This document shows positions 16,721 through 53,491 of a stretch of 64,000 nt of DNA, one piece after another. The translations under genes and the position numbers were made by a program. The DNA is from Promethearchaeota archaeon (GTDB lineage: Archaea > Asgardarchaeota > Lokiarchaeia > Sigyniarchaeales > SOKP01), in assembly GCA_019058425.1 (NCBI GenBank), contig JAHPYZ010000012.1:1-64000 (forward strand). Reading direction: 5' to 3'. Each line of letters opens with the position of its first letter. The first letter of the stretch is position 1. The notes under the pieces are model-generated. The model was not told the DNA's origin. It did no database searches and saw nothing but the letters and a program-made list of their open reading frames with translations.

Positions 16721-16771
16721 TCTTTTTTCAACCAATTTTTTTAATTTTTATTTTAGAAACTTTTTAATTTA

Positions 16772-16787
16772 ATGAATAATTATTCAT
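16772..16787. promoter_or_regulatory. Fe-S island palindrome ATGAATAATTATTCAT (exact, in an 18-bp palindrome)
   Basis: Identical to the 13770 site and extended to AATGAATAATTATTCATT. It lies between the divergent NifX3-ATPase operon and the NBP35-IscU-radical SAM operon, 51 and 74 nt from their starts. It probably controls both. Confidence 0.7.
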
Positions 16788-16861
16788 TATTAATATTTAA
16801 AAAATATTAAAATATATAAATTTAACCATTAAAAATAACTAAAATTAAGAGGTGCAAGGAT

Positions 16862-25694: not shown

Positions 25695-25765
25695 TTTTTT
25701 GCAGCTTTAATTATTACTAATATGACCATAAATTATTGAATTAATATTTTTATTCTTTAAATAAT

Positions 25766-25775
25766 AAAAAAAAAA
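25766..25775 (-). terminator. T-tract after ABC ATPase gene
   Basis: Ten A on the plus strand 11 bp after the ATPase stop, followed by further A-rich sequence. It may end the transporter operon before malQ. Confidence 0.4.
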
Positions 25776-25786
25776 GAAAAAATTAG

Positions 25787-27166: not shown

Positions 27167-27179
27167 TTTCTTAACCTCC

Positions 27180-28775
27180 TTATTTTACTCCTCCCGCTAC
27201 TACTCCTGATACTAACTGTTTTTGTAGTAATAAATAGAATATAACAACAGGTGCTGCTACTAATATTGAATATGGTGATAAAAGTTCATAAAACGTTGGA
27301 TTATCAGGAGCATTTAGGTTTTGATAATTGAAAAAAAGTAATGGTAGAGTAGCACGTGGATCTGTTTCACCTATGAATGTCCGTGCTAAAACAAATTCTT
27401 GCCATGCAGAAAGAAATGTAAATACCATAACTGCAACCATACCCGATTTTGCTAGTGGGATCACAATTTTGAAAAATGTGCTAAATTTTCCATAGCCATC
27501 AATATATGCAGCTTCTTCGATATCTACGGGGATTGTTTCAAAATAGCCTTTCATCATCCAAGTAACATATGCCGTAGATCCAGTAGCCATAACCAATAGT
27601 AGTCCAAATAGTACAACAGGGCGTTCCAAAAGTCCCAATGAACTCATAATGACATACTGAGGAATCAGTAATATAATCGCTGGAAACATTTGGGTTGAAA
27701 GTATTAAAAAAGTCATAATACCTTTACCCCTAAATCTGAATCGAGCTAAAGCGTAAGCAGAAGCTACTGAAAGTGCTAGTCCAAGGAAACTTGTTCCAAA
27801 ACCAATGAAGAGGCTATTGAAAAGAGCATTTCTAAATGCTGGTTCATCCACTCCCACAGTAAACATTACTGAGGAATAATTCATGATCATTGATCCTATC
27901 GGATCCCTAGGAAACCTAGCATGATTAATCTCAAACGGAGTTGAAAAAGATGCAATTACTGCTAAATAAACGGGAAAAAGAGTAAATATCAAATATAATA
28001 CAAGAACAAAATATAGTGGGATATTTTTCAAAAAGTTCCTCAATCCTACTTTAACAGATATATTTACTGATTTTTTTGTCCCTTCTTTATCCTTTGACAG
28101 AGTAATAGTTCCACCTTTTTCTATTAGAATATCAATTTCGCCTATATTTCTTTTTGATTGATATTTATTTCTAAGAAAAATATATGCTGTAATACCGATT
28201 ATGCATAGAGAAGAAATCATGAAGGTTATACTAGAATTCTCAATAATCATAGATTGACCCGCTATATCTCCTTTTATCCACTCAAAACCAGAAATTGTTC
28301 CTCCCATTGAAGGCAAAGTCTCAAGAGTTATTAAACTAAATCTTAACCAGAATCCTAACAAAGCAGCTACAGCGCTGAAAATAATTAAGATACCAATTAT
28401 AATTTTTGTTGTTTTAAACCACTTCTTTCTAATGATATATTGATATATGCAAATAGCTGTGATAAGCATTAAAAATGAATTACCAATGATATAAAAGGTT
28501 AAATTTCGAATAAGTAATGAAATCAGTTGTGTAAGAGGAGTATTTAGATATATTGGATTAGCACTTTGCCATTGTGAGCCAGATCCAGTAGTGTATTTTA
28601 TTCGATTCCACAGAATTGTTTCTGTTTCCCAAAAACCAACTATAATAAGAATGAAGCTAAATATCACTAGAAATAATGAGATATAGTCCCAGTTCATTTG
28701 AGATAGTTTGGAAAAATTTCTCTTGGGAATTTCATTCTGTTCAGATAAATTATCAGTTTCTATTAAATTCGCCAT
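27180..28775 (-). CDS. sugar ABC transporter permease (MalG-like) with N-terminal membrane extension
   Basis: 531 residues against about 280 for a typical MalG. The C-terminal 280 residues are a standard permease with the EAA loop IEEAAYIDGYGKFSTFFKIV, which contacts the ATPase. The first about 250 residues add four hydrophobic helices and a soluble strand-rich linker (about 205-245, GGTITLSKDKEGTKKSVNIS). It starts 2 bp after the other permease gene and shares its transcript. Nothing suggests decay; the added membrane part parallels the insertions in the other two components. Confidence 0.92.
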   Translation of the reverse strand: MANLIETDNLSEQNEIPKRNFSKLSQMNWDYISLFLVIFSFILIIVGFWETETILWNRIKYTTGSGSQWQSANPIYLNTPLTQLISLLIRNLTFYIIGNSFLMLITAICIYQYIIRKKWFKTTKIIIGILIIFSAVAALLGFWLRFSLITLETLPSMGGTISGFEWIKGDIAGQSMIIENSSITFMISSLCIIGITAYIFLRNKYQSKRNIGEIDILIEKGGTITLSKDKEGTKKSVNISVKVGLRNFLKNIPLYFVLVLYLIFTLFPVYLAVIASFSTPFEINHARFPRDPIGSMIMNYSSVMFTVGVDEPAFRNALFNSLFIGFGTSFLGLALSVASAYALARFRFRGKGIMTFLILSTQMFPAIILLIPQYVIMSSLGLLERPVVLFGLLLVMATGSTAYVTWMMKGYFETIPVDIEEAAYIDGYGKFSTFFKIVIPLAKSGMVAVMVFTFLSAWQEFVLARTFIGETDPRATLPLLFFNYQNLNAPDNPTFYELLSPYSILVAAPVVIFYLLLQKQLVSGVVAGGVK

Positions 28776-28777
28776 TA

Positions 28778-30340
28778 TTATGTCTCAACCTCCCACATCT
28801 GTTCTGTTTTAATTAGTTTTCGATAAACAAGACTGAACGATATCAAAATTATGAATACAGTAAAACTTAGAGCACTTGCTTGAGAATATTGTCTATCTGG
28901 ATTGAATCGAGTATAAATGAATGTGACAAAAATATCATAATAGACTGGATCTCCTATTCCTGTTTGGTTTTGAGATAACAAATATACCACATTAAATAAA
29001 TTGAACGTCCAAATGATTCCCAATAATGATACAGTTAATAGTGTAGGTTTAAGAAGAGGGAGCGTAACCTTTTTAAATTGACCCCAGCTTGATAAACCAT
29101 CAATCTCTGCTGCTTCATATAATTCATTTGGTATTGACTGCAATGTTGCTAAGAAAGAAAGCATCATAAATGGAACACCAAGCCATACATTAATTAAAAT
29201 GGCAGAAAATGTAATCATTTTGAATTGATAACCGAATATATAGATATTATCTGTAATCCAAAATGTAGATTGAATTTGTGGGATATCAATTATTCTATAG
29301 CCTAATATTCCCTCCTGAATCCTACCTAATGTTCCTTGAAGAAGGTCATTAAACAATAGTATTAATAAGATACCTATAATTCCAAGCACAACAAAAACTA
29401 AAGGTCGAAAATTGCGTTTAATTTTAATCCGCTTATCTAATAATTTGTAGGAATAAACAGTAAGGATTATTATTGCTATAACCGCAATCAGTAAACACAG
29501 CAAATTACCAAAAGTAAAGGCAGCACTATTTCCAAATTGATTAGTAAGAGATCCTAGTATCCCTAAATCACTATCAAAGACATATGATCTCCACATCAAT
29601 GTAGAAACAAATGACGGAATAGCCCAAGGTAAAATAAATAATGAACGGAAAATACCTCTACCTGCAAACTTTCGATTCAAAAGCACTGCTAATCCAATCC
29701 CCATTATAACATGAAGAAATGTACAGAAAAATGTCCAAAAAAAAGTATTAAACAGAATTCTTAAGAAATCGATATCTGGTGCAGTTAAAACATCTCTATA
29801 TTCATCTAAAGGAAGGCCTAAAGTCCCTAAGAATGTAAAACTCTTTATGATCCATTCAAAGATAAATAGTGTAAGAGGAGCAACTAGTAATCCAAAAACG
29901 AAAGCAATAGTAACTTTAACAATTTTGCTTTTAAACCTATTTATTATCTTTAATCTCTTGTAAGCTAAACGACTGTACCAAACAGTGAAAATAACTGTTA
30001 ATAAGAGTGTTAATCCCGATATCATGAAAATACCCTTATCAAATGGCTCATCTAAAAAGAAGAAACTTACGAGCGAAACAAATGACAAATTGTTAGCATC
30101 TGTATAGTATAGAAACGCATTTCTTAATTCTAAAGCAGAAGGATTTCGGTAAAAACTGATCATTAATGCAAAACCTATAGGAAGAAACACAAATAAAATT
30201 AAGGCTAAATATGCAGGTAATAAAAACAAGAAATCTGCTAAACTCTCTTTAATTGGTTTCTTTTCCCTCTTCACTTTTTTTCTAAGTTTCCATCTTTTTT
30301 TTCTTTCAGGTTTAATTTCTAATTCTTGTACAACTTCCAA
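28778..30340 (-). CDS. sugar ABC transporter permease (MalF-like) with extra membrane helices
   Basis: 520 residues, starting at TTG 30340 with AGTGA upstream. The EAA loop is LYEAAEIDGLSSWGQFKKVT. The core resembles a MalF/UgpA permease of about 300 residues. Two insertions each carry two hydrophobic helices: about 100-165 (around GLTLLLTVIFTVWY and FVFGLLVAPLTLFIFEW) and about 275-345 (around CLLIAVIAIIILTVY and FVVLGIIGILLILLFNDL). The N-terminus is highly basic. It lies 77 bp after the binding-protein gene. Confidence 0.92.
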   Translation of the reverse strand: MEVVQELEIKPERKKRWKLRKKVKREKKPIKESLADFLFLLPAYLALILFVFLPIGFALMISFYRNPSALELRNAFLYYTDANNLSFVSLVSFFFLDEPFDKGIFMISGLTLLLTVIFTVWYSRLAYKRLKIINRFKSKIVKVTIAFVFGLLVAPLTLFIFEWIIKSFTFLGTLGLPLDEYRDVLTAPDIDFLRILFNTFFWTFFCTFLHVIMGIGLAVLLNRKFAGRGIFRSLFILPWAIPSFVSTLMWRSYVFDSDLGILGSLTNQFGNSAAFTFGNLLCLLIAVIAIIILTVYSYKLLDKRIKIKRNFRPLVFVVLGIIGILLILLFNDLLQGTLGRIQEGILGYRIIDIPQIQSTFWITDNIYIFGYQFKMITFSAILINVWLGVPFMMLSFLATLQSIPNELYEAAEIDGLSSWGQFKKVTLPLLKPTLLTVSLLGIIWTFNLFNVVYLLSQNQTGIGDPVYYDIFVTFIYTRFNPDRQYSQASALSFTVFIILISFSLVYRKLIKTEQMWEVET

Positions 30341-30386
30341 CTAATTCACTTTTTTATAGTTTTATAAGATCTATTCAATTTAAAAT

Positions 30387-30397
30387 AAAAAAAAAAA
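30387..30397 (-). terminator. T-tract after sugar-binding protein gene
   Basis: Eleven A on the plus strand 20 bp after the binding-protein stop. It could attenuate transcription into the permeases, giving excess binding protein as is common in such operons. Confidence 0.4.
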
Positions 30398-30417
30398 GAT
30401 TTTTTAGATAAAAATTT

Positions 30418-31839
30418 TTATCTTCTCTTTCTCATAGAATATATGACAATTCCTAACGTACCTGTTATGAGAATACCTAATACAAGGGATATCTCAAATC
30501 CCGGGATAGTAACCTGTTCTGTTCTACCCCATCCGGGTAAAATTTCATTCCATTCAGCAATAGTACTTGAAAGTAAAGAATCTAAACTAATTTGATCTGC
30601 TAAATATTGATCCAGATATCCCCCAAGGACATTTTCCATTTGACCATAGAATGGTGAAGGTGTTAATTGGTGTGCATTCAAACACTGGTTAAAGTAAGGC
30701 TCGACATATTGGAAAGAAGGTGATGCCATAAAAGTTGTATTAGCCATTGCACTCATTCTAGCAGGAACATGAGAATTATTAATCCCTGACAACACCATCA
30801 TTTTCTCAGAAGATAAAAATTGAGTTAATTTCAAAGCAGCATCATATTCATCAGTCTGTGAAGAAATTGTATAGTAATTCCCACCTAATAATGCACCTTG
30901 ATTACCATCAGCATCATGAGGTAATAACATAAATCCAAGATTAGAGGCTCCATATGTAGTCCCATTAAATTGAGGATAATTTGTTAGTAAATTCTCTATT
31001 TCCCAAGGTCCTGTAGCAACCATTGCAACTCTTCCATTCCCGAAATCAGGAATGTAATTTCCCCATCCTTGCTCTACCCATGGACGAGTCAATGTTGAGT
31101 CAGTAAGATTTTTAATATACTGTAATGCACCTCGTGAAACTGCACTATCAACATCAATATGCTCTGTATCATATATATACCTCTCCATAAATTGAGCACC
31201 ATGACCATAATAATATGGTTGAGCACCATAAAACATACCTTGTAGTGATAAAGCATAAACACCTGCAGTAGCATTCAACAGAGCAATATTTGTATCAAAT
31301 TCAGACCAAGTCCAAGAAACGTTAAAGGAAATTTCATGGGAAGGAATTCCAGCAACATCAAATAAATGTTTATTAAACATAAATATAGGACAGTCTATAG
31401 CTTGTGGAAAACCCCAGATCTCACCTGCGTAAGTCATCAATCCAAGAGCAGCTGGAATAAAATCATTTAGATCTGCTGAAGTGTATTCCTCTGTTAATGG
31501 ATGAATTAAACCATCATATGCAAATCTAATAACATCATCTCTCGGAGTTCTCAATACATCTGGTTCTGTCCCTGCTATAAAAGCAGTTGCAAATTCATCA
31601 CCTACTCCAAAAAATCCATGTTGCGTGGCAGTAACTGTGATAGTAGGATTTTGCGCCTCAAATTTAGCGATTTTTTCTAAAACAATTGGTTTTTCGGCAT
31701 CGTTTTCAGTGTACCAAAATGTAATAGACGCCGCTTGAGAAGGTTTTGGATCATAAGCAGATACATTCCAGAGAAATATCATACTCATACTAAGAAATAA
31801 TAAAATCGCAAGAAATAACGAATTTTTTTTATTATTCAT
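30418..31839 (-). CDS. ABC transporter sugar-binding protein, double membrane anchor
   Basis: 473 residues from ATG 31839 (upstream in-frame starts to 31902 lengthen the N-terminus without a visible ribosome binding site). The N-terminal helix NSLFLAILLFLSMSMIFLW is a signal peptide or anchor. Then comes the family-1 binding fold: ITFWYTENDAE, FATAFIAGTEPDVLRTPRDD, GEIWGFPQAIDCP and AMVATGPWEIENL. The C-terminus ends in a second helix (ISLVLGILITGTLGIVIYSM) plus RKRR, an archaeal membrane anchor. It captures maltodextrin-like sugars at the cell surface for the permeases encoded downstream. Confidence 0.92.
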   Translation of the reverse strand: MNNKKNSLFLAILLFLSMSMIFLWNVSAYDPKPSQAASITFWYTENDAEKPIVLEKIAKFEAQNPTITVTATQHGFFGVGDEFATAFIAGTEPDVLRTPRDDVIRFAYDGLIHPLTEEYTSADLNDFIPAALGLMTYAGEIWGFPQAIDCPIFMFNKHLFDVAGIPSHEISFNVSWTWSEFDTNIALLNATAGVYALSLQGMFYGAQPYYYGHGAQFMERYIYDTEHIDVDSAVSRGALQYIKNLTDSTLTRPWVEQGWGNYIPDFGNGRVAMVATGPWEIENLLTNYPQFNGTTYGASNLGFMLLPHDADGNQGALLGGNYYTISSQTDEYDAALKLTQFLSSEKMMVLSGINNSHVPARMSAMANTTFMASPSFQYVEPYFNQCLNAHQLTPSPFYGQMENVLGGYLDQYLADQISLDSLLSSTIAEWNEILPGWGRTEQVTIPGFEISLVLGILITGTLGIVIYSMRKRR

Positions 31840-31949
31840 ATAATACGCCTTTTTGAATTTTTTAATTCTTTTATTTTTTTTTACAAATTTAGTTAAAATC
31901 ACAAATTTGTAACATGGTATTTAATAATTTACTTTATTTCTTATAAGAT

Positions 31950-32040
31950 TAGGATTATAGTGCCAAAAAATAAATTATAAAACTATTATCGATCTATTCT
32001 TTAAATTTAAAAAAAAAAACCACCTTTTACACTAATCCTA
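31950..32040. promoter_or_regulatory. 8-bp inverted repeat TAGGATTA/TAATCCTA in divergent sugar promoter
   Basis: TAGGATTA (31950-31957) and TAATCCTA (32033-32040) lie on the two sides of the divergent promoter between the ABC operon and the GH57 gene; both are flanked by GTG/CAC. They could be paired half-sites for a sugar regulator. Function inferred. Confidence 0.35.
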
Positions 32041-32114
32041 CAAGTAATAAATTTTAATAAGAAACTTTAAATAATAATTGGCAGTTGGGTAATATATTTA
32101 TTAGGAGTAACTTT

Positions 32115-34079
32115 ATGCCCGTTGTCTTGGGTCTTTTATTTCATGGGAACTTCCCTTTTTCGATGCATTACACCGTAGCATATCATAGTTGCTACAAGCA
32201 TTTACCAATTATAATGCGTGAATACCCTGATGTACAAGTAAACTTGCATTTATCGGCTCCATTATTACAACAATTAGCATGGAAAAATCCAGAGACGTTG
32301 AAGCATTTTAAGGAGGGCATAAATACTAACCAGTTTGAACTTCTAGGCTCTTCATATGCCCAAAATATTCTATATAACTGTTCTGAATGGATAAACAGAG
32401 AACAAATTAAATGGAATCGTATCACAATTAAGAAACTATTCCCACAATTGAAAAGACTAAAAGGGTACTGGAATGCTGAAAGAGTATTTTATAACGAGAT
32501 GATTAGTTTGTTATTAGATTCTGGTTATAATTATACATTAGTCGAAAATAACATTCTTAAGAAAGCTTTAGCATCAAAAAGTGCATCGGTTGAACATGTA
32601 TGGAAAAGTAAAATAAGAGAAAAAAATGCGAAATTCTATTTCCTTCCTGATAATCAACAAGTTAAAGAAAAGATTAATAGAGTAATACAATCGGGACAAT
32701 TATCAGAATTCTTTAGGTTTTTAGACAAAAATATAGAGTCTGACTCAGATAGTAAAGTTTTATGTTATGCTGAGGATGCTGAGGTGGTTGGCTTTTGGCA
32801 GATTGCACGAAATTTAAATTATAAAAAATCTCATGAAAACTTTAAATTACTTTTAAAGGGACTTACAGACAATAATTGGATTGAAGTCAAACTTTTTTCT
32901 GATATTATTAAGCATGAAGAAGCATATGAAATAGGTACTATCCCCAATGGACAAGCATCTTGGATGGTAGAAAGTGTAAAAGTAGATGGATATAAAGACT
33001 GGTTTGACTATATCGAACAATCTCCAGAAGTCGAATATTATAGGAAATACTATAGAAGTACTGAGGATAAATTTAAATCTTTACCAAATAAAATTAAAAA
33101 GAGAAACCTTACTAATGAATTGTTAAAATATTTTCTATCACAGCAATTTGAATTTGGATGTGCCCCCGGTTCTTTTGGTGATTTAGATTCACGGTATCTT
33201 ATGAATGTTCCAGGTATGCAACTTTGGGATGATAGAATGACTCTAAATACAATTTTTGATTGGTTATCCAAGGATCAAAAACAAACAACTAAACCCATGT
33301 GGAAATTCAGAGGATCATCTCCTGTTATTGAATGGTTCGCATTTAAATGGATCTGCCAATTTAGTCCATTTGGAGGGAGATGTACTCTTTTAGTTAACAG
33401 AGATAAAGATTCCATATTTTCACCAAATCTTTTCTTTTCATCACAAGATAGAAATGTGCTATATAATGCGCTTCCCCATCTAAAAATTCATGTTAAGTAT
33501 CCTGGTATTGAAGAAATAACAAATACTCATGGGAATTTCTTAATGGATGATTGTTCCGTTAATAATGAACCAATAGGCACCATGATGGATTATAAAGTAG
33601 AAATAAATCAAGAAAATAGAAAATATTATAAAGGGAAATCTCTAAAACATACTTTTTTTAACTCTTTGATTTTACCAATGGAGAATTCAATTTTGTTTTG
33701 GTATGCTGAGACGGGAATATTAATAAAAAAAGAAATTAAAGAAATTGATACACATTTAAACATTATTTACATCCTTCAAAATATATCAGAAGACAATAAG
33801 ACGATTAAATTTACTATAACAAATGAATTTGCCCCAGAATCCTTAATTGTACTTGAAAATGGTAAAAACAGTCTTAAGTTGGATATAGCTGAAGAAAAAA
33901 GTGGTACTAAAATAATTGTTAACAATACTATTACGAATTCTAAAGTAACAGTTATTAGTAAAGTAAAACCACTAGAAGTTAAAAAAATACCATCGGAATT
34001 TGCTATAAGGTACAAAATAATTTATCAATTTAAACTTGTTAAAAAGGAAATTAAAAATATCCCATTATTAGTAAAATAA
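32115..34079 (+). CDS. glycoside hydrolase family 57 protein (alpha-amylase/glucanotransferase-like)
   Basis: 654 residues from ATG 32115, with AGGAG 8 nt upstream. The start VVLGLLFHGNFPFSMHYTVA carries the GH57 His motif. LKGYWNAERVFYNEMI is where family 57 has its conserved W-x-x-E nucleophile region, and YAEDAEVVGFWQIARN matches the segment with the second catalytic acid. The C-terminal half is beta-rich, as in GH57 glucanotransferases. GH57 enzymes act on alpha-1,4-glucans in archaea. No signal peptide, so intracellular. It is divergent from the maltodextrin-type importer, fitting joint use with MalQ. Confidence 0.8.
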   Translation: MPVVLGLLFHGNFPFSMHYTVAYHSCYKHLPIIMREYPDVQVNLHLSAPLLQQLAWKNPETLKHFKEGINTNQFELLGSSYAQNILYNCSEWINREQIKWNRITIKKLFPQLKRLKGYWNAERVFYNEMISLLLDSGYNYTLVENNILKKALASKSASVEHVWKSKIREKNAKFYFLPDNQQVKEKINRVIQSGQLSEFFRFLDKNIESDSDSKVLCYAEDAEVVGFWQIARNLNYKKSHENFKLLLKGLTDNNWIEVKLFSDIIKHEEAYEIGTIPNGQASWMVESVKVDGYKDWFDYIEQSPEVEYYRKYYRSTEDKFKSLPNKIKKRNLTNELLKYFLSQQFEFGCAPGSFGDLDSRYLMNVPGMQLWDDRMTLNTIFDWLSKDQKQTTKPMWKFRGSSPVIEWFAFKWICQFSPFGGRCTLLVNRDKDSIFSPNLFFSSQDRNVLYNALPHLKIHVKYPGIEEITNTHGNFLMDDCSVNNEPIGTMMDYKVEINQENRKYYKGKSLKHTFFNSLILPMENSILFWYAETGILIKKEIKEIDTHLNIIYILQNISEDNKTIKFTITNEFAPESLIVLENGKNSLKLDIAEEKSGTKIIVNNTITNSKVTVISKVKPLEVKKIPSEFAIRYKIIYQFKLVKKEIKNIPLLVK

Positions 34080-34225
34080 AGTAAAAAGTTTTTCGTAAAA
34101 TGAAAATGTGAAGAAAGAATATTCGAGGAAATGGTATGAAGAATCTTAATTTAAGTATCCATAAACCTAAATTAAATAATAAATTCTATATTATTAAGCA
34201 ATTCTAAACTTAAGGATATCTCTAA

Positions 34226-35650
34226 ATGTTTGTCGAATATTTTTATTACTTAAAAGAACGTTTACCCGTTAGTATTACGGAATATATGACATTAATGGAA
34301 GCTCTCAATCAAGGGCTAATCCATAATATGGTAGAGTTTTACTACACTTCCCGCTCAATTTTATGTAAAAACGAGCATCATTTCGATATTTATGACATTG
34401 CATTTGCAAATTTCTTTAAGGAAGCCATGGTAGAATTCCCTGAAGATATTAAGCAAGAAATTTGGGATTGGCTCAATAAAGATATAACCCTTCCAGAGCT
34501 AATTGAAGGTCTACAACTCCTTCTGAGAGAATATCAAGAGTATATTAATATAGATAATCTTGAACAGTTCTTAGAAGAATTATTGGAAAAATATGGGGCC
34601 GAATTTGGTGATAAACTCTTAATTAATGCTCCCAATGAAATCAAGGATGAAATTTGGAAGTGGTTGGAAAAAAATTTTGATTTATCTGAAGCACAAGGCA
34701 ATTTTCAAGAAATGATGAACCAATTCTTTGATCTCGAAGAAATGCAGAATAGATTTGAAGAATTAATGCAGATGCAAGATGAAGAACATAATGGAGGAGA
34801 TCATTGGATTGGTACTCAAGGAACATCTCCATTTGGTCATGGGGGTCAGAATCCAATGGGTATGAGAGTTGGTGGTTCTTCAGGGATGCGTATGGCAATG
34901 CAAATTGCTCAGAAAAGAATCTTTAAGGATTATCGGAAAGATATCGTACTCGATACAAGACAGATAAAAGTTGCTCTAAAACGCCTAAAAAAACTGGAAG
35001 AAATTGGAAAAAAAGATGAATTAGATTTAGATAAAACCATTGATAAAACTGCTAAAAATTGTGGAGATATTGAAATTGTATTTGATAAAAAAAGAAAAAA
35101 CAACGTTAGAATGCTCCTTTTAATGGACGTTGGAGGTAGTATGACACCATATGCTCACCTAGTTAACCTTCTCTTCTCCGCGGCTAATAATATGTCTCAT
35201 TGGCGTGAATTTAAACATTTTTACTTCCATAATTGCCTTTATGAGTCAATCTATTTAAATGCTCGTAGAAATCCCGATGAGGCAATAGAATTTAATGAAT
35301 TTTTAAGAAAATATGATAATAAATATAAAGTAGTAATCGTGGGTGATGCAGCTATGGCGAGCTGGGAATTAACAGAGAAATATGGAAGTATTTATTATTA
35401 TCATAGGAATGAATTGCCCGGAATATATTATATCAAAGAAGTTGCTAACCATTTTAAAAATAACGTTGTGTGGTTAAATCCAGAACTCATTAGACCAGAA
35501 TGGGCACCTTGGACCCGAAAAATAATATCAAGCATCATCCCTATGTTTGATTTAACTGTTGAGGGAATCGAAGAGGCTATGGATTTCCTTCGTAAAGGCG
35601 GTAAAAATATGTTTACAACAGTTCAACACTTTAAAGGATTAAATTATTAG
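34226..35650 (+). CDS. CoxE-like VWA-domain protein
   Basis: 474 residues. An N-terminal helical region (residues 1-170) is followed by a Gln/Gly/Met-rich linker, then a von Willebrand A domain from about 285. Its metal site reads LLLMDVGGSMTPYA, i.e. D-x-G-x-S rather than D-x-S-x-S, as in CoxE-related proteins, followed by FKHFYFHNCLYESIY and VIVGDAAMASWEL. CoxE-type proteins normally work with a MoxR AAA ATPase to insert metals or remodel complexes; no MoxR gene is in this window. It lies behind the GH57 gene with no operon signs. Confidence 0.8.
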   Translation: MFVEYFYYLKERLPVSITEYMTLMEALNQGLIHNMVEFYYTSRSILCKNEHHFDIYDIAFANFFKEAMVEFPEDIKQEIWDWLNKDITLPELIEGLQLLLREYQEYINIDNLEQFLEELLEKYGAEFGDKLLINAPNEIKDEIWKWLEKNFDLSEAQGNFQEMMNQFFDLEEMQNRFEELMQMQDEEHNGGDHWIGTQGTSPFGHGGQNPMGMRVGGSSGMRMAMQIAQKRIFKDYRKDIVLDTRQIKVALKRLKKLEEIGKKDELDLDKTIDKTAKNCGDIEIVFDKKRKNNVRMLLLMDVGGSMTPYAHLVNLLFSAANNMSHWREFKHFYFHNCLYESIYLNARRNPDEAIEFNEFLRKYDNKYKVVIVGDAAMASWELTEKYGSIYYYHRNELPGIYYIKEVANHFKNNVVWLNPELIRPEWAPWTRKIISSIIPMFDLTVEGIEEAMDFLRKGGKNMFTTVQHFKGLNY

Positions 35651-40830: not shown

Positions 40831-42135
40831 TTAATCCTCCTTAAATCCCTCCATAATTTTATCTAATATTTCTTTATCAGAAAGAATGTTGTTTGGGGGA
40901 TTTACGATTTTTTTTAAATCAATTGGTATATGATCCAAGCGATAAGCTAATCCTTCACATTCAATTCCTGTGATAGCTGAAGGAATTATTATATCTGCAG
41001 CATTTGAAGTTGCAGATTGTTTATTATCGATAAGGATTAAAGGTTTTGCCATCAATTTCTTACTTAATTGCCAAGGTAAATGTGAAATAGGGTCTGTTCC
41101 AACAATTAAAGAACAATCAAAATCTTCATTTTCAATTTTTGAAATGATGTTATCTTTTGATTCAATTAATTGATTGTTTTCAAATTGTAAACCATGATTT
41201 TTACCGCATACTGACAACGCAACATGATCAAATCCTAGCATATTATAATGACCACCTAACATAATGATAGATATACGTCCCTTTTGTTGTTTTGCATTTA
41301 TTAATTGCACTAATTCAAGTAATTCTTTAATCACGGTGGATCCATTATGAGAACCTAAAATTCCTTGACCAATAAAGATTATTCCATTTTCTGCTCCTGT
41401 TAAATGGAGTAATAATCTTTTTAGATCATCTTTATCAATACCAGCAACACCATTGGTTGGAATACTATCTGTGGTACAGCATTCTTCTTTTAAGACACGA
41501 ATTAGATCTAGATCTTTTCCGCATTCAATCTGAAGTGCAACATCTCGTACTCCCATTACTCCAAAAGAAGCTGTTTTCACCGGATCTATCACGATTAGAG
41601 TTTTGATTTCTCGACCTGTCATTCTAAACTTCCCACGTGAAAAAAGAGCTTTATTTAATAAACGTGGTATTGATTCCGCAGGATTTGCTCCCCATGAAAT
41701 CAACAAATCTGCTTTATTTATGATTTCTGATATTGTTGTTAATGTTATTCCTGTTTCTTTCGAAATATTTAGAACTTTTCCTTGGCATATTGTAGAATTA
41801 GAATCTATGAAGCCATTGATATGTTTGGCAAGCTTAATTCCCGCTAATTGAGCTTCACAACTTACTGTAGAAAAACCATACAATAGAGGTTTGGAAGATT
41901 TGTTGATAATATTGATGACATTGTCTATAGATTCATCTAATGTTGCCTTCTCTAATACACCATATTTTCTAATAAGGGGATTATAGATTCGATTTTTAGC
42001 TGTGATTTGGTCGAATCGTTCTTTTCCTTTCAAGCACGCTCCTATAACCTCATCAATATATAGTCCATCACTTTTAATAATAATATCATCACATAAAAGT
42101 GAACAACCTGAACATGTAACCCGTTCACTAGCCAT
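40831..42135 (-). CDS. fwdB: formylmethanofuran dehydrogenase subunit B
   Basis: 434 residues. The N-terminal CSGCSLLCDDI ligates a [4Fe-4S] cluster, and GACLKGKERF carries the active-site cysteine that binds Mo or W, so this is not the selenocysteine form. SWGANPAESIPRLL, LSVCGKNHGLQ and IIPSAITGIECEG are typical of the molybdopterin oxidoreductase fold. It reduces CO2 to formate for FwdA. Metal choice (Mo or W) cannot be read. The Fe-S protein gene lies 44 bp upstream. No fwdC gene is present in this window. Confidence 0.93.
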   Translation of the reverse strand: MASERVTCSGCSLLCDDIIIKSDGLYIDEVIGACLKGKERFDQITAKNRIYNPLIRKYGVLEKATLDESIDNVINIINKSSKPLLYGFSTVSCEAQLAGIKLAKHINGFIDSNSTICQGKVLNISKETGITLTTISEIINKADLLISWGANPAESIPRLLNKALFSRGKFRMTGREIKTLIVIDPVKTASFGVMGVRDVALQIECGKDLDLIRVLKEECCTTDSIPTNGVAGIDKDDLKRLLLHLTGAENGIIFIGQGILGSHNGSTVIKELLELVQLINAKQQKGRISIIMLGGHYNMLGFDHVALSVCGKNHGLQFENNQLIESKDNIISKIENEDFDCSLIVGTDPISHLPWQLSKKLMAKPLILIDNKQSATSNAADIIIPSAITGIECEGLAYRLDHIPIDLKKIVNPPNNILSDKEILDKIMEGFKED

Positions 42136-42722: not shown

Positions 42723-42905
42723 GAGATTTATTAATTTCTTTAGTTTATGTATTATAAATTTCTTGTGGTAAGAATTATAATTATAATTGAAAACTTAGAA
42801 ATTTTCATAATTTATTAGCAATAAGATTAAAGGAACTAATGCGTTTTACACATTTAAGATTAATAAAATAATGATGTATTTATTAAAACTAAAGTGAGAA
42901 AGGAA

Positions 42906-43760
42906 ATGGTAGAAGAAGAGGTTCCAGATATAAACCTTAAAGAAATGATGTTGGATGAGCGTTCTAAAAACATTAAAACAAATATGGAAAAGATAAAATA
43001 CAAGATTGTAATCATCTCTGGAAAAGGAGGTGTAGGAAAAACTACGGTTGCTATTAACCTTGCTATGAGTTTAGCTAGTGTTGGATTGAGAGTAGGGATT
43101 CTTGATGTTGATATTACTGGACCGAATGTCATAAAAATGTTGGGAATTAGTCCTGAGTTGAAACCGAAAGTTGATGCTGAAGCTAAAAGATTTTATCCAG
43201 TTAATGGACCTTTAAACCTCAAAGTTATGAGTATGGCTTTTTTAACTCTCAATCCTGATGAACCGGTTATATGGAGAGGTCCAATGAAAATGAGTGCTGT
43301 TAGGCAATTCTTAGGAGATGCTGAATGGGGCGAACTTGACTATTTAATCTGCGACCTACCGCCCGGAACTAGCGATGAAACTTTGGATATCCTCCAACTT
43401 ATCCCAGATGAGAATGTTATCGTAGTTTCAACCCCTCAGGAGGTTGCCTTAATGGATGCAAGAAAGACAATAAAAATGGCGATGGTTATGGAAAGAAATA
43501 TTCTTGGAATAATTGAGAATATGAGTGGTTTTAATTGCCCACATTGTGGGGAATATGTAGATCTTTACCCTCCTGGTGGGGTGGAGAAAGCTACAGCAGA
43601 TTTTAATATTACACTATTAGGCAAAATCCCTTTTGAAACTGAAGTTAGTCAACAAGGTGACCAAGGATTACCATTTATTTTAAAGTATCCAGAAAGTAAA
43701 TCCGCTACAGCATTTAAGGAAACTGTTAAAAAAATTAGAGGACATTTAGAAAAACAATAA
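42906..43760 (+). CDS. NBP35/Mrp (ApbC)-type Fe-S carrier ATPase, copy 2
   Basis: 284 residues from ATG 42906 (GTG 42894 possible). It is about 80% identical by eye to copy 1 at 16862-17737, including SGKGGVGKTTVAIN, LICDLPPGTSDETLDI and FNCPHCGEYV. Both copies keep every motif, so both should work. This copy is divergent from the fwd operon, which needs many [4Fe-4S] clusters, while copy 1 sits with IscU. They may serve different clients. The high identity suggests fairly recent duplication. Confidence 0.92.
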   Translation: MVEEEVPDINLKEMMLDERSKNIKTNMEKIKYKIVIISGKGGVGKTTVAINLAMSLASVGLRVGILDVDITGPNVIKMLGISPELKPKVDAEAKRFYPVNGPLNLKVMSMAFLTLNPDEPVIWRGPMKMSAVRQFLGDAEWGELDYLICDLPPGTSDETLDILQLIPDENVIVVSTPQEVALMDARKTIKMAMVMERNILGIIENMSGFNCPHCGEYVDLYPPGGVEKATADFNITLLGKIPFETEVSQQGDQGLPFILKYPESKSATAFKETVKKIRGHLEKQ

Positions 43761-45442: not shown

Positions 45443-46783
45443 CTAAAGCTCAGAGATCGCTTTTTTTCTCGCTAATTTTTGTTCTTCGGTAAGTTCGAGT
45501 TCACCTCTTCGAACAAAGAACATAAATCCCAATGCTAAAATTAAGAATATAGCTCCATCTAGTAACAATGATGTTCTTCCAAAAGCATCTCTTAATCCTC
45601 CTACACTCAATGGGCCAAGTATTTGTGCTAACACGCTAAAGAAGTAATAAAGTCCTGTATATGTTCCAATCTTCCTTGCACTAGGTGCTAATTCCCAAAT
45701 AATGACAATTGTATTTACATTAACCAAAGCATATCCAATACCATAGAATACCAAGATAATCATAGTAACTGTTGTTGTTTGAACAGCAAAACCAATTAAT
45801 AAGGCTACAAACATTATTGCTAAGCCTATTTTAATGCAAAGTCTTCTACCAATCTTAGGAGCTAATAATGCTAATGGAAAAGCTGCTATGATAAATGGTA
45901 TTGCGACAAAGTTAAATAAGAATCCAGCGAATCCAGAGCCTAAACCTAATACTCCATTAGGACCAGAACCGGCATAAATTGAGAATAAGGCTTCTAACCC
46001 ATTATGAGTTAAAAATAAAGAAAAAATTGTTAAAAGCATAAAAATGGTACTCTTGTCTTCCTCTTTTAAAATATCCTTAATACTACTGATTAAACCAATT
46101 TTTTCTTTTTTGTCTTTAGTTTTCTCACCTTCTCTTGCTTCCGCTTCCAGAATTAATTTATAACTAAATGACTGATTCTCATCTATTTTAAAGAAAAGTA
46201 CTATTAAAGCAGCAACCATTATCACTGAAGCTATGATAAAAGTAACCTGTAACCCAATATAATCGGAGACTAAACTCATAGTATAAGCTACGATTGCACC
46301 AAGTCCACCCATAATATTAATAACTGCATTTGCTTTACTTCTATGAACGGGTCTCACAAAATCTGGCATTAAGGCAACAGCTTGAGATCGATAGAAACCC
46401 ATACTTATACTAAAAAGAAACATCCAGACTAATAGGATCGATAGAGATCCTGTAGGGAGAAACCCAGTAGGAATAAGAGAGAAAAATATAGCCGATAAGA
46501 TAACTCCCACAATTATATAGGGCATACGCCGTCCATATTTGGTTCGCGTATTATCAGAAACTGACCCCATTATTGGTTGAATTATTACACCAACAAGATT
46601 ATCAAGAGTCATTAATGCACCTACTAATAATCCTGCTATGAGAACACCTGTAAAATAGAGATCTAATTGTTGACTTACTTGAGTATTGTATAAACTCCAT
46701 GAAATACCAGTTGTAAAAAATGCCAAACCAATAATAAAAGTCTGCTTTATCTCAAGTTTTTCCTCCTTCTCACCTTCAGACAT
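45443..46783 (-). CDS. MFS sugar transporter (GPH/SLC45-like)
   Basis: 446 residues from ATG 46783 (GTG 46792 possible), twelve helices. The N-terminal half carries QPIMGSVSDNTRTKYGRRMP, the loop signature of glycoside-cation symporters and SLC45-type carriers. A charged cytoplasmic loop lies in the middle (EAREGEKTKDKKEK). The second half holds GGLRDAFGRTSLLL. Substrate probably a sugar or glycoside. It lies about 2 kb from the OFA-type transporter and the isomerase/GH31 pair, so a role in the same pathway is possible. Confidence 0.85.
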   Translation of the reverse strand: MSEGEKEEKLEIKQTFIIGLAFFTTGISWSLYNTQVSQQLDLYFTGVLIAGLLVGALMTLDNLVGVIIQPIMGSVSDNTRTKYGRRMPYIIVGVILSAIFFSLIPTGFLPTGSLSILLVWMFLFSISMGFYRSQAVALMPDFVRPVHRSKANAVINIMGGLGAIVAYTMSLVSDYIGLQVTFIIASVIMVAALIVLFFKIDENQSFSYKLILEAEAREGEKTKDKKEKIGLISSIKDILKEEDKSTIFMLLTIFSLFLTHNGLEALFSIYAGSGPNGVLGLGSGFAGFLFNFVAIPFIIAAFPLALLAPKIGRRLCIKIGLAIMFVALLIGFAVQTTTVTMIILVFYGIGYALVNVNTIVIIWELAPSARKIGTYTGLYYFFSVLAQILGPLSVGGLRDAFGRTSLLLDGAIFLILALGFMFFVRRGELELTEEQKLARKKAISEL

Positions 46784-46911
46784 TTTTTTCACATTTTGTT
46801 TTTAATTTAAATTTTTAAAAATTAATTAGATATAGTTGCTTAAATAGATTTACTAAATAAATAATACAACAAAATCAAATTTATTTAGAGTGCTATGAAA
46901 AAAAAAGGAAT

Positions 46912-48797: not shown

Positions 48798-50084
48798 ATG
48801 TCTGATGTACAAAAAATTAGAAATCGCTGGATTGTTGTCATCGGAGCTATTATGATCCAACTGGCATTAGGAACAATATACTCATGGGGAACGTTAACCA
48901 TTTTTGTTAGTCCATATTTGAATGAAGTAAGAGAAATAACAGTTTATATTTTCGGTGTAGGCTTATTATCTTTCGCTATAACAATGATTTTCGCTGGAAA
49001 ACTACAACAAAAGTATGGTCCTAGAAACATCGCCATTCTAGGAGGTGTTTTATTGGGTGGAGGAGTCATTTTATCTTCATTTATGACAACATTTATTGGA
49101 TTGTTAATTACTTATGGTATAATTTTTGGAGCTGGAATTGGATTTGGATATGTTTGTCCAATCGCGGCAGCAGGCAAATGGTTTCCTGATAAAAAAGGAT
49201 TTATTAATGGGATTGCTGTAGCAGGATTTGGGGCAGGTTCATTTATATTTAATTATGTGATTAAAGCTCTTGCTAATCCAACTGGCTTAGAAGTTACTGA
49301 TCCTACCTTTCTTGCAACAGTTTCTCGAAATATTCCTATGATGTTTATAATTCTTGGGATTATATATTTAGTTTTAATTGTTGGAGGGGCAATGACATTG
49401 AGTAACCCACCTGAAGGATGGCTACCTCAAGGGTGGACTCCTCCTCCCCCATCAGAAGAAAGTGGAATATCTGGACTTGATTTTGAAAGAGGTCAAACAA
49501 TTAAGTTACCCCAATTCTGGATGTTATGGGCTACATTTGTATTGAGTGCCATAAGTGGATTAATGGTGATTGGAGCCTATGCATCATTCGCTAAGACTGT
49601 TGATGCTGGAGATAATTTTATATATGTTATTGGTACTGCAGATTTTGTGTTCATAGGTAGCTTAGCAGCACTCTTTAATGGTTTAGGAAGGATTGTGTGG
49701 GGGACAATAGCTGACTTTATAACTTATAAGAAATCAATGCTAATTATGTTTTCTACTCAAGCAGTTTTGATGTTTATTTACTTTACAACAAATGTAAACG
49801 AAATTTTCTTTCTAATAATGACGTGTGCTATATATTTCTGCTTTGGAGGAAATTTCAGCTTATTCCCTACTGCAACGACTGATTTGTTCGGAGCTAAGAA
49901 TTTAGGTCCAAATTATGGAATAGTGTTTACAGCTTATGGTATAGCGGGTTTTCTAGGAGCAACTATGACTCTGCCGATTGTAGAAGCATTTGGAAGCTAT
50001 TTAATCCTGTTTGTGGTAATGGGATTAATGTCAGTAGGAGCCGCTGTTTTAGCATATTTAATAAAACCACCAACTCGTAAATAA
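48798..50084 (+). CDS. MFS transporter, oxalate/formate antiporter (OFA) family
   Basis: 428 residues, twelve helices. MIQLALGTIYSWGTLTIFVS is the OFA N-terminal signature, followed by GAGIGFGYVCPIAAAGKWFP and ATTDLFGAKNLGPNYGIVFT, both family hallmarks. OFA carriers exchange small organic anions such as oxalate, formate or pyruvate. The next genes are a sugar isomerase and a sulfoquinovosidase-like GH31 enzyme 92 bp and 1.4 kb downstream, so the carrier may import a sulfosugar derivative or export a short-chain sulfonate. That is inferred. Confidence 0.88.
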   Translation: MSDVQKIRNRWIVVIGAIMIQLALGTIYSWGTLTIFVSPYLNEVREITVYIFGVGLLSFAITMIFAGKLQQKYGPRNIAILGGVLLGGGVILSSFMTTFIGLLITYGIIFGAGIGFGYVCPIAAAGKWFPDKKGFINGIAVAGFGAGSFIFNYVIKALANPTGLEVTDPTFLATVSRNIPMMFIILGIIYLVLIVGGAMTLSNPPEGWLPQGWTPPPPSEESGISGLDFERGQTIKLPQFWMLWATFVLSAISGLMVIGAYASFAKTVDAGDNFIYVIGTADFVFIGSLAALFNGLGRIVWGTIADFITYKKSMLIMFSTQAVLMFIYFTTNVNEIFFLIMTCAIYFCFGGNFSLFPTATTDLFGAKNLGPNYGIVFTAYGIAGFLGATMTLPIVEAFGSYLILFVVMGLMSVGAAVLAYLIKPPTRK

Positions 50085-50107
50085 TCGTATATTTAATTTT
50101 TCTCATC

Positions 50108-50120
50108 TTTTTTTCTTTTT
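50108..50120 (+). terminator. T-tract after OFA transporter
   Basis: Two T runs separated by one C, 23 bp after the stop. It could separate the transporter from the isomerase/GH31 pair. Confidence 0.35.
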
Positions 50121-50176
50121 AGCTAGAAAAGAACAAATGTGAAATTTTTAAAATTAACAAATATAGGATTAAAAAT

Positions 50177-51493
50177 ATGAAACAAAATATTCGAATAGGA
50201 ATAGTTTGTATCGCAAGGAAAACCTTTGACTACACAACCGCTTTTGAGATTTATAAAAAGATTCAAAACGATTTAAAATCGGTTGAAAATGTAGAATGGG
50301 AAATTATACATGATTTAATTATAGAAATTGAAGAAGCACAGACAGCTGCTCGTTATCTTACTTCCAAAGAAATCGATGGATTAGTTTGTATAAGTGGAAC
50401 ATTTGCATTAGGGCATCTAGTATTAGAATTAAATAAGATCATAGAAAAACCGATTTTATTATGGGGTTTGAACGAATTGCCTTATGATGGTGGAAAAATT
50501 CGCCTGAACTCTGTCTGTGGAATAAATTTGAATGCTTCAAATCTGTATAAAGCAGGAGTAAAGAATTATCATGTAGTTATCGGGGATGAAATTGATGAAG
50601 ACTGGTTAGATGCAATCAGAGTCTTGAAAGTATTTAAAATTTCCCATTTAGGTATTATTGGTTCGAAAGCTAAAGGATTCTTTAATTTAGATGTAGATGA
50701 GTTAGATTTATATAAGCAAATTGGTATCCTCATAGATCATTTTGAATTGAGTGAAATTTTCAATTTTGAAGCCAATAAAATGCATATTAGTGAGAGAATT
50801 ACTCAAATAAAATCTATTTTTGATGTTTCAAACATAACTGAAAATCAATTAGAAAAAGTAGCAATTCTCACAGTAAAATTTGATACATTTATGAAATCAA
50901 ATAAATTAGACGCTATAGCTATTCGTTGTTGGCCAGAATTTGCTACTGATTTTGGAATTTCTCCTTGTGCTGCCATGTCAATCTTACAATCAGAAAACAA
51001 AATTTTAACATGTGAAGGAGATATTTTAGGTTCTCTTTCCATGCTTGCTCATAAAGCAATTGGAGCTGAAACTCCTTTTATAGCAGATTTTTCTCAAGTA
51101 AATTTTGAGGACGATTTTAGCGTGTTATGGCATTGTGGAGTAGCAGCGTGTAATTTATGGAATGGAAAGTGCATAAGATCATTAGATACATATTTTGCAG
51201 GAGGTAGAGGAGTTACTGCTGATTTTGTAATGAAATCGGGAGAAATTTCTATGTTAAGGTTTGACTATGCTCCTAGAGAGTATCGAATATTTCTAAAAAA
51301 AGCGAAAGGAATTCCCATGAAAAAAGAACTAAAAGGTACTTATGTAAAAGTAAAATTTGAAGAGAACATTAAGGAAGTACTGGATAAGATCATTCAAAAT
51401 GGAATTGCTCATCATATATCAATAGTATATGGTGATTTTATAAAACCATTGCAAATATTTGCAAATTTGAAAGGATGGAAAATAATCGAATAA
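50177..51493 (+). CDS. L-fucose/L-arabinose isomerase-like protein (COG2407)
   Basis: 438 residues. CEGDILGSLSMLAHKAIG is the conserved acidic metal-site motif of the family. It is followed by FSVLWHCGVAACNLW, the histidine-containing substrate segment, and an N-terminal Rossmann-like half with ISGTFALGHLVLEL. Such proteins interconvert aldoses and ketoses. Members in this branch are too divergent from FucI to assign L-fucose as the substrate. It lies 24 bp before the GH31 enzyme and is surely cotranscribed. If that enzyme releases sulfoquinovose, this protein is the natural candidate to isomerise it. Confidence 0.8.
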   Translation: MKQNIRIGIVCIARKTFDYTTAFEIYKKIQNDLKSVENVEWEIIHDLIIEIEEAQTAARYLTSKEIDGLVCISGTFALGHLVLELNKIIEKPILLWGLNELPYDGGKIRLNSVCGINLNASNLYKAGVKNYHVVIGDEIDEDWLDAIRVLKVFKISHLGIIGSKAKGFFNLDVDELDLYKQIGILIDHFELSEIFNFEANKMHISERITQIKSIFDVSNITENQLEKVAILTVKFDTFMKSNKLDAIAIRCWPEFATDFGISPCAAMSILQSENKILTCEGDILGSLSMLAHKAIGAETPFIADFSQVNFEDDFSVLWHCGVAACNLWNGKCIRSLDTYFAGGRGVTADFVMKSGEISMLRFDYAPREYRIFLKKAKGIPMKKELKGTYVKVKFEENIKEVLDKIIQNGIAHHISIVYGDFIKPLQIFANLKGWKIIE

Positions 51494-51517
51494 AATTTTA
51501 CTCTTTCTATACTTAAT

Positions 51518-53491
51518 ATGTTGAGATTCGAACAAGTAGCAAATGAGTTTGAGCTGTATTTCAGAGATTATCTATTTTTAAAACATAATCATGAAGAACC
51601 ATGTTTCAAAATAGGACTGGCTAACGCTCGTTATAAGATGCATCATGGAGAATTCAAAATAAGGGAGAAAATATTAGTTCAAATCCCTCTTTTAAAGTTT
51701 AAAATTATTTCTAATTCTAAAAATAACATAATTATAGAGTTTTATAAAGAAAATGAAAAGTTAATTGTGACTTTTGTTATTAAAAATAGTCAATTAGAGA
51801 TGCAATTTAAATGTTTTAATCCTGAAATAAACAGAATTTGGATTAGAATACCAGCTAATTCAGATGAAGCGATATATGGTTGTGGAGAACAATTTTCGGA
51901 ACTAAATTTGAGAGGTAAAGAAGTTCCATTATGGGTTGAAGAACAAGGTGTTGGTAGAGGAGATCCACCAATAACCGGTGATTGGTATACCACTTATTAT
52001 CCTCAACCTACCTTTATTTCATCTGAAAATTACTTTTGCCATTCAGAAAATTCTTGCTATGCAATATTCAATTTCACCCAAGAAACCTTTCATGAATTAT
52101 ACATTTGGAGTATCCCTAAATTTTTAGTGTTTGGAAAATATGAAACCGCTATTGAAACTATTAGTAACCTTTCGCAATTTCTAGGTAGGCAACCAAAATT
52201 GCCCGATTGGGTTTTTGATGGTGTTTGGTTAGGTGTACAGGGTGGAAAAGATATTGTCGAAGAAAAAATTAATACGTGTATAGAAAACGAGGTTAAAATT
52301 GCAGCTGTGTGGTGCCAAGATTGGCAAGGTATTCATATGCAAGGAGCACAGAAAAGACTTACCTGGAATTGGGAATATGACGAAGAATTATACCCTGATT
52401 TACCCAATTTTATCCGGAACTTAAACGAGAAAGGTATTAAATTCCTTGGTTATATTAATTCTATGCTTGCTAAGGATGAGGAACAATATATTGAGGCTTT
52501 AAGGAAAGATCTATGTGTGAAAAATAAGGAAGGAGATTTATATAAAATTATTACGGATACTGGGGAGAAGTCCCTTCTTGATTTGAGCAATCCAGATACT
52601 ATTAAATGGTTAAAAAGGATTATAAAAGACAATATGATTAACATTGGGTTGTCGGGATGGATGGCGGATTATGGTGAATATTTACCAATCGATTCTGCTA
52701 TATATTCTGGAGAAATTTCCGAGAATTTTCATAATAAATATCCTGTTATTTTTGCAAAAGCTAATTTGGAGGCTATCCAAGAGTCTGGAAAACTAGGCGA
52801 AATCGTGTTTTTTACAAGAGCAGGATATTCAAATATTTCAAAATATACTACTCTAGTTTGGGCTGGAGATCAACTGGTTGATTGGAGTATGCATGACGGA
52901 TTAGCGTCTGTAATTCCTGCCGGAATTTCATTAGGAATTTGTGGAATTGGTTACTATCATTTCGATATAGGAGGTTTCCACAGTTTAGGAAAATATATAA
53001 GAGATAAAGAAATATTTATGCGTTGGGTAGAAGTTAGTGTTTTTACTATGATAATGCGTACTCATGAAAGTATTAAACCATTTGATAATTGGCAATTCGA
53101 TTCGGATGAAGAAACTCTCAAACATTTTAGCCAAATGAGCCAGATTTATAGCTTTTTAAAACCTTATTTAAAGCAACTCTCTATAGAATATTTAGAAGAT
53201 GGTCTTCCACCTATTCGAGCATGTTACCTCCATTATGAAGATGATCCTGAACTTCATAATATAAAATACCAGTATTTATTTGGTAAAGATTTACTTGTGG
53301 CACCCGTGATTAAACCTAGTATAAAAGAATGGAGCGTTTATCTTCCTAATGATAATTGGATACATTTATGGACTGGTGATAAATATCAAGGAGGGTGGTA
53401 CACTGTTAAAGCCCCAATAGGTAAACCCCCTGTTTTTTATAGAGAAGGTTCGAGATTTTCTGACCTTTTTGAATCATTAAAAGTTCTATAA
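51518..53491 (+). CDS. glycoside hydrolase family 31, probable sulfoquinovosidase
   Basis: 657 residues. The nucleophile is D384 (GWMADYGEYLP) and the acid/base D451 (WAGDQL). The sulfonate-binding residues of E. coli YihQ as I recall them (Gln262, Gln288, Arg301, Trp304) correspond to Q241, Q267, R280 and W283 with a constant offset of 21, as do both catalytic Asp. Only Tyr508 differs (F487). IYGCGEQFSELNLRGKEVP and LGRQPKLPDW are also as in YihQ. No signal peptide, so intracellular. It would release sulfoquinovose from sulfoquinovosyl glycerol. Related alpha-glucosidases lack the QQ-R-W set. Confidence 0.88.
   Translation: MLRFEQVANEFELYFRDYLFLKHNHEEPCFKIGLANARYKMHHGEFKIREKILVQIPLLKFKIISNSKNNIIIEFYKENEKLIVTFVIKNSQLEMQFKCFNPEINRIWIRIPANSDEAIYGCGEQFSELNLRGKEVPLWVEEQGVGRGDPPITGDWYTTYYPQPTFISSENYFCHSENSCYAIFNFTQETFHELYIWSIPKFLVFGKYETAIETISNLSQFLGRQPKLPDWVFDGVWLGVQGGKDIVEEKINTCIENEVKIAAVWCQDWQGIHMQGAQKRLTWNWEYDEELYPDLPNFIRNLNEKGIKFLGYINSMLAKDEEQYIEALRKDLCVKNKEGDLYKIITDTGEKSLLDLSNPDTIKWLKRIIKDNMINIGLSGWMADYGEYLPIDSAIYSGEISENFHNKYPVIFAKANLEAIQESGKLGEIVFFTRAGYSNISKYTTLVWAGDQLVDWSMHDGLASVIPAGISLGICGIGYYHFDIGGFHSLGKYIRDKEIFMRWVEVSVFTMIMRTHESIKPFDNWQFDSDEETLKHFSQMSQIYSFLKPYLKQLSIEYLEDGLPPIRACYLHYEDDPELHNIKYQYLFGKDLLVAPVIKPSIKEWSVYLPNDNWIHLWTGDKYQGGWYTVKAPIGKPPVFYREGSRFSDLFESLKVL

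Follow-up and report, generated by a model that had tools for sequence, protein, structure and literature searches.

A predicted sulfoquinovosidase and sulfoquinovose isomerase gene pair, candidate entry steps of sulfoglycolysis in a lokiarchaeial genome

Sulfoquinovose (SQ) is an abundant sulfosugar of plants and algae, and the anoxic sediments inhabited by Lokiarchaeia receive algal sulfolipid. To our knowledge, sulfosugar breakdown has so far been described from bacteria only. The closest described systems are the sulfo-TAL (sulfo-SFT) pathway of Eubacterium rectale and Priestia/Bacillus, which features SftG, SftI, SftT/SqvA and SftR, and the sulfo-TK pathway of anaerobic Clostridia and Spirochaetota, which features SqvD, SqwGH, SqwI and SqwF. 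Production of SQ amounts to billions of tonnes a year, and according to a January 2026 review no SQ breakdown pathway has been characterised in archaea (PMC12890257). An earlier note on the DNA analysed here held the process to be little described in Asgard archaea; in agreement, no paper on the subject was found in the literature searched (subscription papers and preprints lie mostly outside it).

The window, the whole stretch of 64,000 nucleotides that was analysed, corresponds to positions 1-64,000 of contig JAHPYZ010000012.1 (GCA_019058425.1) of a Promethearchaeota archaeon of the Lokiarchaeia. The genome (G000) is a draft bin of 4.64 Mb in 143 contigs, estimated to be 97.6% complete with 7.4% contamination, and the contig in question (C124) spans 75 kb. 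Three genes lie in a row on the + strand, and encode an OFA/lactate-type MFS carrier (48798-50084, 428 aa), a predicted SQ isomerase of the SftI/SqvD type (50177-51493, 438 aa) and a predicted GH31 sulfoquinovosidase (SQase) of the YihQ/SftG type (51518-53491, 657 aa). They are separated by 92 and 24 bp, respectively; ORF coordinates thus agree with the gene order and the shorter gap already given in the earlier note. It is highly likely that the 50177-53491 region encodes an SQase paired with an SQ isomerase, i.e. the entry steps of SQ breakdown in an archaeal sulfoglycolysis. This reading is based on homology, residue conservation, operon linkage, co-occurrence and fold prediction, from which we infer substrates and catalysis, as well as export and the step that follows in the window genome.

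The best PDB match of the GH31 protein is E. coli YihQ (5aed; E 2e-203, 680 bits), and the structure of E. rectale SftG (6pnr) is matched at 627 bits, whereas YicI-type xylosidases reach merely about 155-160 bits. SftG is an assayed SQase, which cleaves nitrophenyl-sulfoquinovoside (PMC11968277). The protein also matches NCBIfam NF007746 at 819 bits, well over the cut-off of 553. The family is named there 'alpha-glucosidase', but we take this model (PRK10426) to be that of the E. coli YihQ family. In a 46-sequence alignment, residues Q262, Q288, R301, W304, D405, D472 and Y508 of YihQ fall on Q241, Q267, R280, W283, D384, D451 and F487 of the window protein at a constant offset of 21, and both the unbroken register and the Phe at the Tyr508 position reported earlier are therefore correct. 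Q241, Q267, R280 and W283, the Q-Q-R-W form of a sulfonate site that may alternatively be K-E-R-W, are predicted to surround the sulfonate, D384 and D451 to act as nucleophile and acid/base, respectively. Phe at the Tyr508 position is general in this Loki subclade. Tyr508 is a contact residue, regarded as usual rather than defining; the change is conservative, and is not taken to exclude the protein from SQases, which are diagnosed by the QQRW/KERW set together with the catalytic pair. Variation at the sulfonate site does occur within the clade, as the R301 position is occupied by Gln in several GH31 proteins linked to SQ isomerases in Loki and Spirochaetota; the window protein keeps Arg. The earlier note had pointed out that its reading depended on the Q-R-W residues not being shared by non-sulfo GH31 enzymes. 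The Q-Q-R-W set was found in none of nine such proteins (Klebsiella YicI, one haloarchaeal and one Bacteroides enzyme, six Asgard GH31s). In the GH31 phylogeny, which the same note had called for, the window protein falls among characterised SQases and is split from these nine at an SH-aLRT support of 100.

The sole NCBIfam match of the isomerase is NF048012, the model of the SftI sulfoquinovose isomerase (E 1.5e-67), hit at 228 bits, below the curated equivalog cut-off of 700. The Caloramator quimbayensis isomerase, 63% identical to that of the window, scores 219 bits on the same model. Its gene adjoins SqwGH-like transketolase halves, an RpiB-type isomerase, a Fe-ADH and an SQase, an arrangement having the anatomy of sulfo-TK operons. 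Since an isomerase of such an apparently complete operon scores just 219 bits, 228 bits are normal for this branch, and the cut-off seems to take in just one of the branches of SQ isomerases. Accepted SQ isomerases of the two branches are reported to share 32% identity (PMC11659671). Identity of the window isomerase to those found in bacterial sulfo-TK and sulfo-TAL operons is 52-63%, and ranges from 52 to 76% when Loki and bacterial SQ operons are taken together. The isomerase gene is linked to that of the SQase in the window, and to SF transaldolase (SF-TAL) or transketolase genes in relatives and bacteria.

The AlphaFold model of the isomerase (pLDDT 92.6) was matched by Foldseek to L-arabinose isomerase (TM 0.86) and L-fucose isomerase (TM about 0.78). 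A phmmer search of the PDB with the single sequence gave no match, arabinose isomerases being reached by profile and fold searches only. E280, D304, H412 and H413 do not vary across 37 isomerase sequences, and likely are the residues of the metal site, as judged from conservation and alignment; in the profile alignment the regions of E280 and of the C-terminal His-His fall on the corresponding Glu-Gly-Asp and His-His segments of arabinose isomerase. Loki isomerases, including that of the window, form one clade (support 99/97). The tree does not resolve the branching order of Loki and bacterial sequences, and hence no direction of transfer is claimed. A second match to the family in the window genome (C74:9654, 99 bits) was rejected as an SQ enzyme and treated as a general sugar isomerase, because the set to which it belongs, scoring 85-104 bits, occurs in most congeners without SQ links. 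No YihS-type isomerase, SF kinase (YihV) or SFP aldolase (YihT) is adjacent at the locus. The earlier note had seen no classical partner of the SQase there. This holds insofar as the isomerase is not of the YihS type, but the isomerase does count as a classical partner, SftI/SqvD being a known enzyme type of SQ pathways.

The carrier scores 352 bits against NCBIfam NF049980 (SfMCT L-lactate MFS transporter), above the cut-off of 320, and in congener G001 the isomerase-GH31 pair likewise has this carrier (82% identity) nearby. Judging from its family, it may serve either in the export of a C3 sulfonate, for instance sulfolactate, or in lactate transport. An additional MFS transporter, encoded on the - strand at 45443-46792, is weakly GPH-like (TIGR00792 GPH, 43.9 bits, below cut-off), weakly similar (up to 52 bits) to GPH carriers adjoining other SQ isomerases, and has a 57.6% identical homologue on the cluster contig of the congener (G001:C432). 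It is a possible sugar importer, tied to the cluster solely by neighbourhood in the two congeners.

Near relatives of the cluster that carry a name come from Lokiarchaeota/Lokiarchaeia and Sigynarchaeota bins. In Loki bins a transaldolase gene recurs directly upstream of the isomerase, and its product scores 295 bits against the solved Bacillus SF transaldolase (BmSF-TAL), 151 bits against the next transaldolase. SF-TAL-isomerase-GH31 operons were found in the Loki genomes L095, L096, L097, L100, L102 and L134. In G144, SF-TAL, SLA-reductase-like, isomerase and GH31 genes lie in a row; SF-TAL, reductase and isomerase genes are found together in G036 and G027. The sulfo-TAL combination of SF-TAL, SQ isomerase and SQase lies in a single operon in relatives such as G144 and G038. 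Among 228 Asgard genomes, most of which are metagenome bins, the isomerase is found in 24, SF-TAL in 20, the YihQ-like GH31 in 28 and all three in 16. Isomerase and SF-TAL share 18 genomes (Fisher p 1.1e-19), isomerase and GH31 share 21 (p 8.7e-21), and p for SF-TAL and GH31 is 1.1e-15; these values overstate independence because the genomes are related, though distinct families and genera are involved. The downstream route in relatives would plausibly be the known sulfo-TAL route. SQ use in an Asgard archaeon, proposed earlier from residue matches, is well supported at the sequence level by the SF-TAL operons and by co-occurrence, far beyond what such matches could achieve by themselves, and sulfosugar breakdown very probably occurs also in Asgard archaea. 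Other genes have been noticed close to the isomerase in some bins. Nickel-pincer (NPN, lactate-racemase-like) isomerase and aldehyde:ferredoxin oxidoreductase genes adjoin it in G020 and G160, while in G125 it has GlcD/GlcF-like genes nearby; a NagB-like/amidohydrolase pair is confined to isomerase carriers.

The search that detected SF-TAL in 20 of the 228 genomes found none in the window genome, in congener G001 (97% complete) or in G140 (99% complete), a genome of the same family; the latter two also host the isomerase-GH31 pair. No YihU/SftR-type SLA reductase was matched in the window genome in a search that included positive controls, and the NagB-like module and the nickel-pincer isomerase are absent from it as well. 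The sole transaldolase gene of this genome (C27, 37% identity) was weighed as a substitute for SF-TAL and dismissed, since it lies in a heptose-synthesis-type locus and its product lacks SF-TAL-specific residues. With none of these functions found, the window organism cannot be assigned a full pathway. Its genome appears to encode the entry steps, isomerase and SQase; a cleavage enzyme was not found there. Lacking SF-TAL, the genome is not a member of sulfo-TAL and is filed as a variant. The earlier note had expected a different downstream route, and had suggested a search for sulfofructose and sulfolactaldehyde enzymes. This search shows that the expectation does not hold for relatives, which have SF-TAL, and in some cases the SLA reductase, of a known pathway, and is retained for the window genome, in which neither SF-TAL nor a YihU-type reductase was detected.

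Other explanations of the locus may be considered. Starch-type genes (GH77, GH57 and a maltose-type ABC importer) are found at 24174-35650, 13-24 kb upstream of the cluster, and along with the 'alpha-glucosidase' name of the GH31 family they would fit an adjunct to starch use, in which the GH31 protein would act as an ordinary alpha-glucosidase or xylosidase, the isomerase on a neutral sugar. This is very improbable, given that the family model is presumably that of YihQ, that the Q-Q-R-W set and the fully supported split of the tree set the protein apart from non-sulfo enzymes, and that the isomerase repeatedly adjoins an SF transaldolase, which is not needed for starch. Mis-binning of bacterial DNA is barely conceivable. 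The contamination estimate of the bin and bacterial homologues of up to 63% identity would allow it, but formylmethanofuran dehydrogenase A/B genes are on the same contig, several genes flanking the cluster are common to congener G001, Loki isomerases form their own supported clade, and the GC3 of the cluster is like that of neighbour genes. The contig is regarded as archaeal because formylmethanofuran dehydrogenase subunit B (40831-42135) scores above its cut-off, and because of the flanks common to G001.

The substrate might be SQ, or a close 6-sulfo sugar, and the pair serve to turn over sulfosugar glycans of the cell itself, or to use another sulfosugar, rather than for growth on sulfolipid SQ. 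SQ is reported from N-glycans of some archaea (PMC12890257), the known energy-yielding downstream enzymes were not found in the window genome, and the Gln variants at R301 suggest that substrates vary in the clade. Such a role is unlikely, as most carriers also have SF-TAL, and the pair is patchy (24/228 genomes, 2/19 in the genus of the window organism), as expected for an acquired trait of nutrient use. Another explanation, doubtful yet deserving attention, is that the organism has an ordinary sulfo-TAL pathway, and SF-TAL was missed in an assembly gap, the genome being a draft and 18 of the 24 isomerase carriers having this enzyme. Against it, the cluster is well inside its contig, the OFA carrier stands where relatives have SF-TAL, G001 and G140 similarly lack the gene, and the transaldolase in the heptose-synthesis-type locus is no substitute. 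A bolder possibility is that the genus of the window organism and G140 break down SQ by SQase and SQ isomerase with neither SF transaldolase nor transketolase, C-C cleavage or transfer taking place in an as yet undescribed way and leading to a lactate-like sulfonate that would leave the cell by the OFA carrier. Aldehyde:ferredoxin oxidoreductase, nickel-pincer isomerase and the NagB-like/amidohydrolase pair of relatives would then mark new branches of sulfoglycolysis. We put this forward tentatively, as a possibility somewhat short of even.

According to the reading of the pair as entry steps of sulfoglycolysis, the GH31 enzyme would hydrolyse sulfoquinovosyl glycosides such as the SQ-glycerol derived from sulfolipid of decayed algae or plants, by a retaining mechanism involving two aspartates. 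The SQ released would be converted to 6-deoxy-6-sulfofructose by a metal-dependent isomerase of arabinose/fucose-isomerase fold. In relatives, SF transaldolase would move a glycerone unit to glyceraldehyde-3-phosphate, yielding fructose-6-phosphate and sulfolactaldehyde (SLA), and in some of them SLA reductase would then form DHPS, the expected product of genomes that have this enzyme. In the window organism a C3 sulfonate may leave the cell by the OFA carrier. Sulfolactate, which is lactate-like, is a reasonable guess for the product in part of the group, because of the lactate-type carrier, the nickel-pincer isomerase, the aldehyde:ferredoxin oxidoreductase and the GlcD/GlcF-like genes. If archaeal sulfoglycolysis is true, a second domain of life, in the form of the archaea nearest to eukaryotes, joins this part of the sulfur cycle; a concrete substrate becomes available for cultivating Asgard archaea, and sulfite-forming neighbours may be supplied with C3 sulfonates. 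With current SftI and YihQ models these genes receive no SQ name, which is a gap in annotation.

The enzymes are of known kinds, and what is new, as far as checked, is their occurrence in archaea and the form devoid of SF-TAL. The archaeal clusters share SQase and SQ isomerase with sulfo-TAL; relatives additionally share SF-TAL, whose archaeal forms are 64-85% identical to one another and close to BmSF-TAL, and some of them an SLA reductase belonging to the 3-hydroxyisobutyrate dehydrogenase family. They differ in the archaeal host and in that no DUF4867 gene was seen beside them, and the window genome differs also in having no detected SF-TAL and reductase. Sulfo-TK shares the isomerase branch, and may differ in SqwI, an RpiB-type protein to which no match was found in the window genome and 20 other Asgard genomes, in a search run without positive control. 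The GH31 protein resembles E. coli YihQ and E. rectale SftG in whole-length homology, both catalytic Asp and the Q-Q-R-W set; it departs from them in the Phe replacing Tyr508, and its archaeal subclade includes members with Gln for R301. Predicted fold and likely metal-site Glu, Asp and His are common to the isomerase and to L-arabinose and L-fucose isomerases, from which it is set apart by an identity of 12-14%, and by family and linkage, which assign it to SQ isomerases.

The SQ isomerases of the anaerobe and archaeal branch escape the NCBIfam model for SftI SQ isomerases (NF048012), as they score 219-228 bits against a cut-off of 700 bits. The model of the YihQ family (NF007746), matched by the window GH31, bears in NCBIfam the name alpha-glucosidase. 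Such clusters for sulfoquinovose (SQ) use will stay hidden from automatic annotation.

Gln replaces R301, a residue of the sulfonate site in YihQ numbering, in YihQ-type GH31s encoded by Lokiarchaeia (loci L083, L085, L097, L098, L101, L103 and L105) and by Spirochaetota (L111, L115, L119 and L121). The majority of these genes adjoin SQ isomerase genes, and the encoded proteins are possibly a specificity variant of sulfoquinovosidases (SQases).

Five consecutive GPH-type MFS genes, probably encoding sulfosugar importers, are located closely upstream of the sulfofructose transaldolase (SF-TAL) and SQ isomerase genes in L094 (1306-9111) and L097 (2119-9099), although in L097 one of the five is a short gene and two are inverted. 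In L104 (5382-9914), L113 (4090-8766) and L166, SF-TAL and SQ isomerase flank genes for a ferredoxin-like protein, an aldehyde:ferredoxin oxidoreductase, a nickel-pincer isomerase of group 22 and an AEC transporter. This set is a candidate for the ferredoxin-linked oxidation of sulfolactaldehyde to sulfolactate. GlcD-like and GlcF/TfrB-like genes, along with an AEC transporter gene, are found immediately ahead of SQ isomerase in L099 (3827-9874), and suggest the oxidation of a 2-hydroxyacid, perhaps sulfolactate.

Elsewhere in the window, a starch-type cluster (24174-35650) encodes a GH77 4-alpha-glucanotransferase, a maltose-type ABC importer and a GH57 protein. Four genes for Mrp/ParA-like P-loop ATPases are located at 14363-17737 and 42894-43760; those at 16895 and 42894 resemble each other, as judged by eye.

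A NagB-like gene is paired with an amidohydrolase gene in L027 (4842-6469), L171 (13385-15010) and L111 (6948-9891). The NagB-like protein has no Pfam match, and retains the motifs FMDEY and GHLAFNEP. Its gene was found in 11 of the 228 Asgard genomes, all 11 of which also have SQ isomerase (p about 1.5e-12, kinship between genomes being ignored). In Spirochaetia the pair shares a single operon with genes encoding a Gfo/Idh dehydrogenase, SQ isomerase and SQase; neither transaldolase nor transketolase genes were found near this operon, which possibly represents a branch of sulfosugar use so far undescribed.
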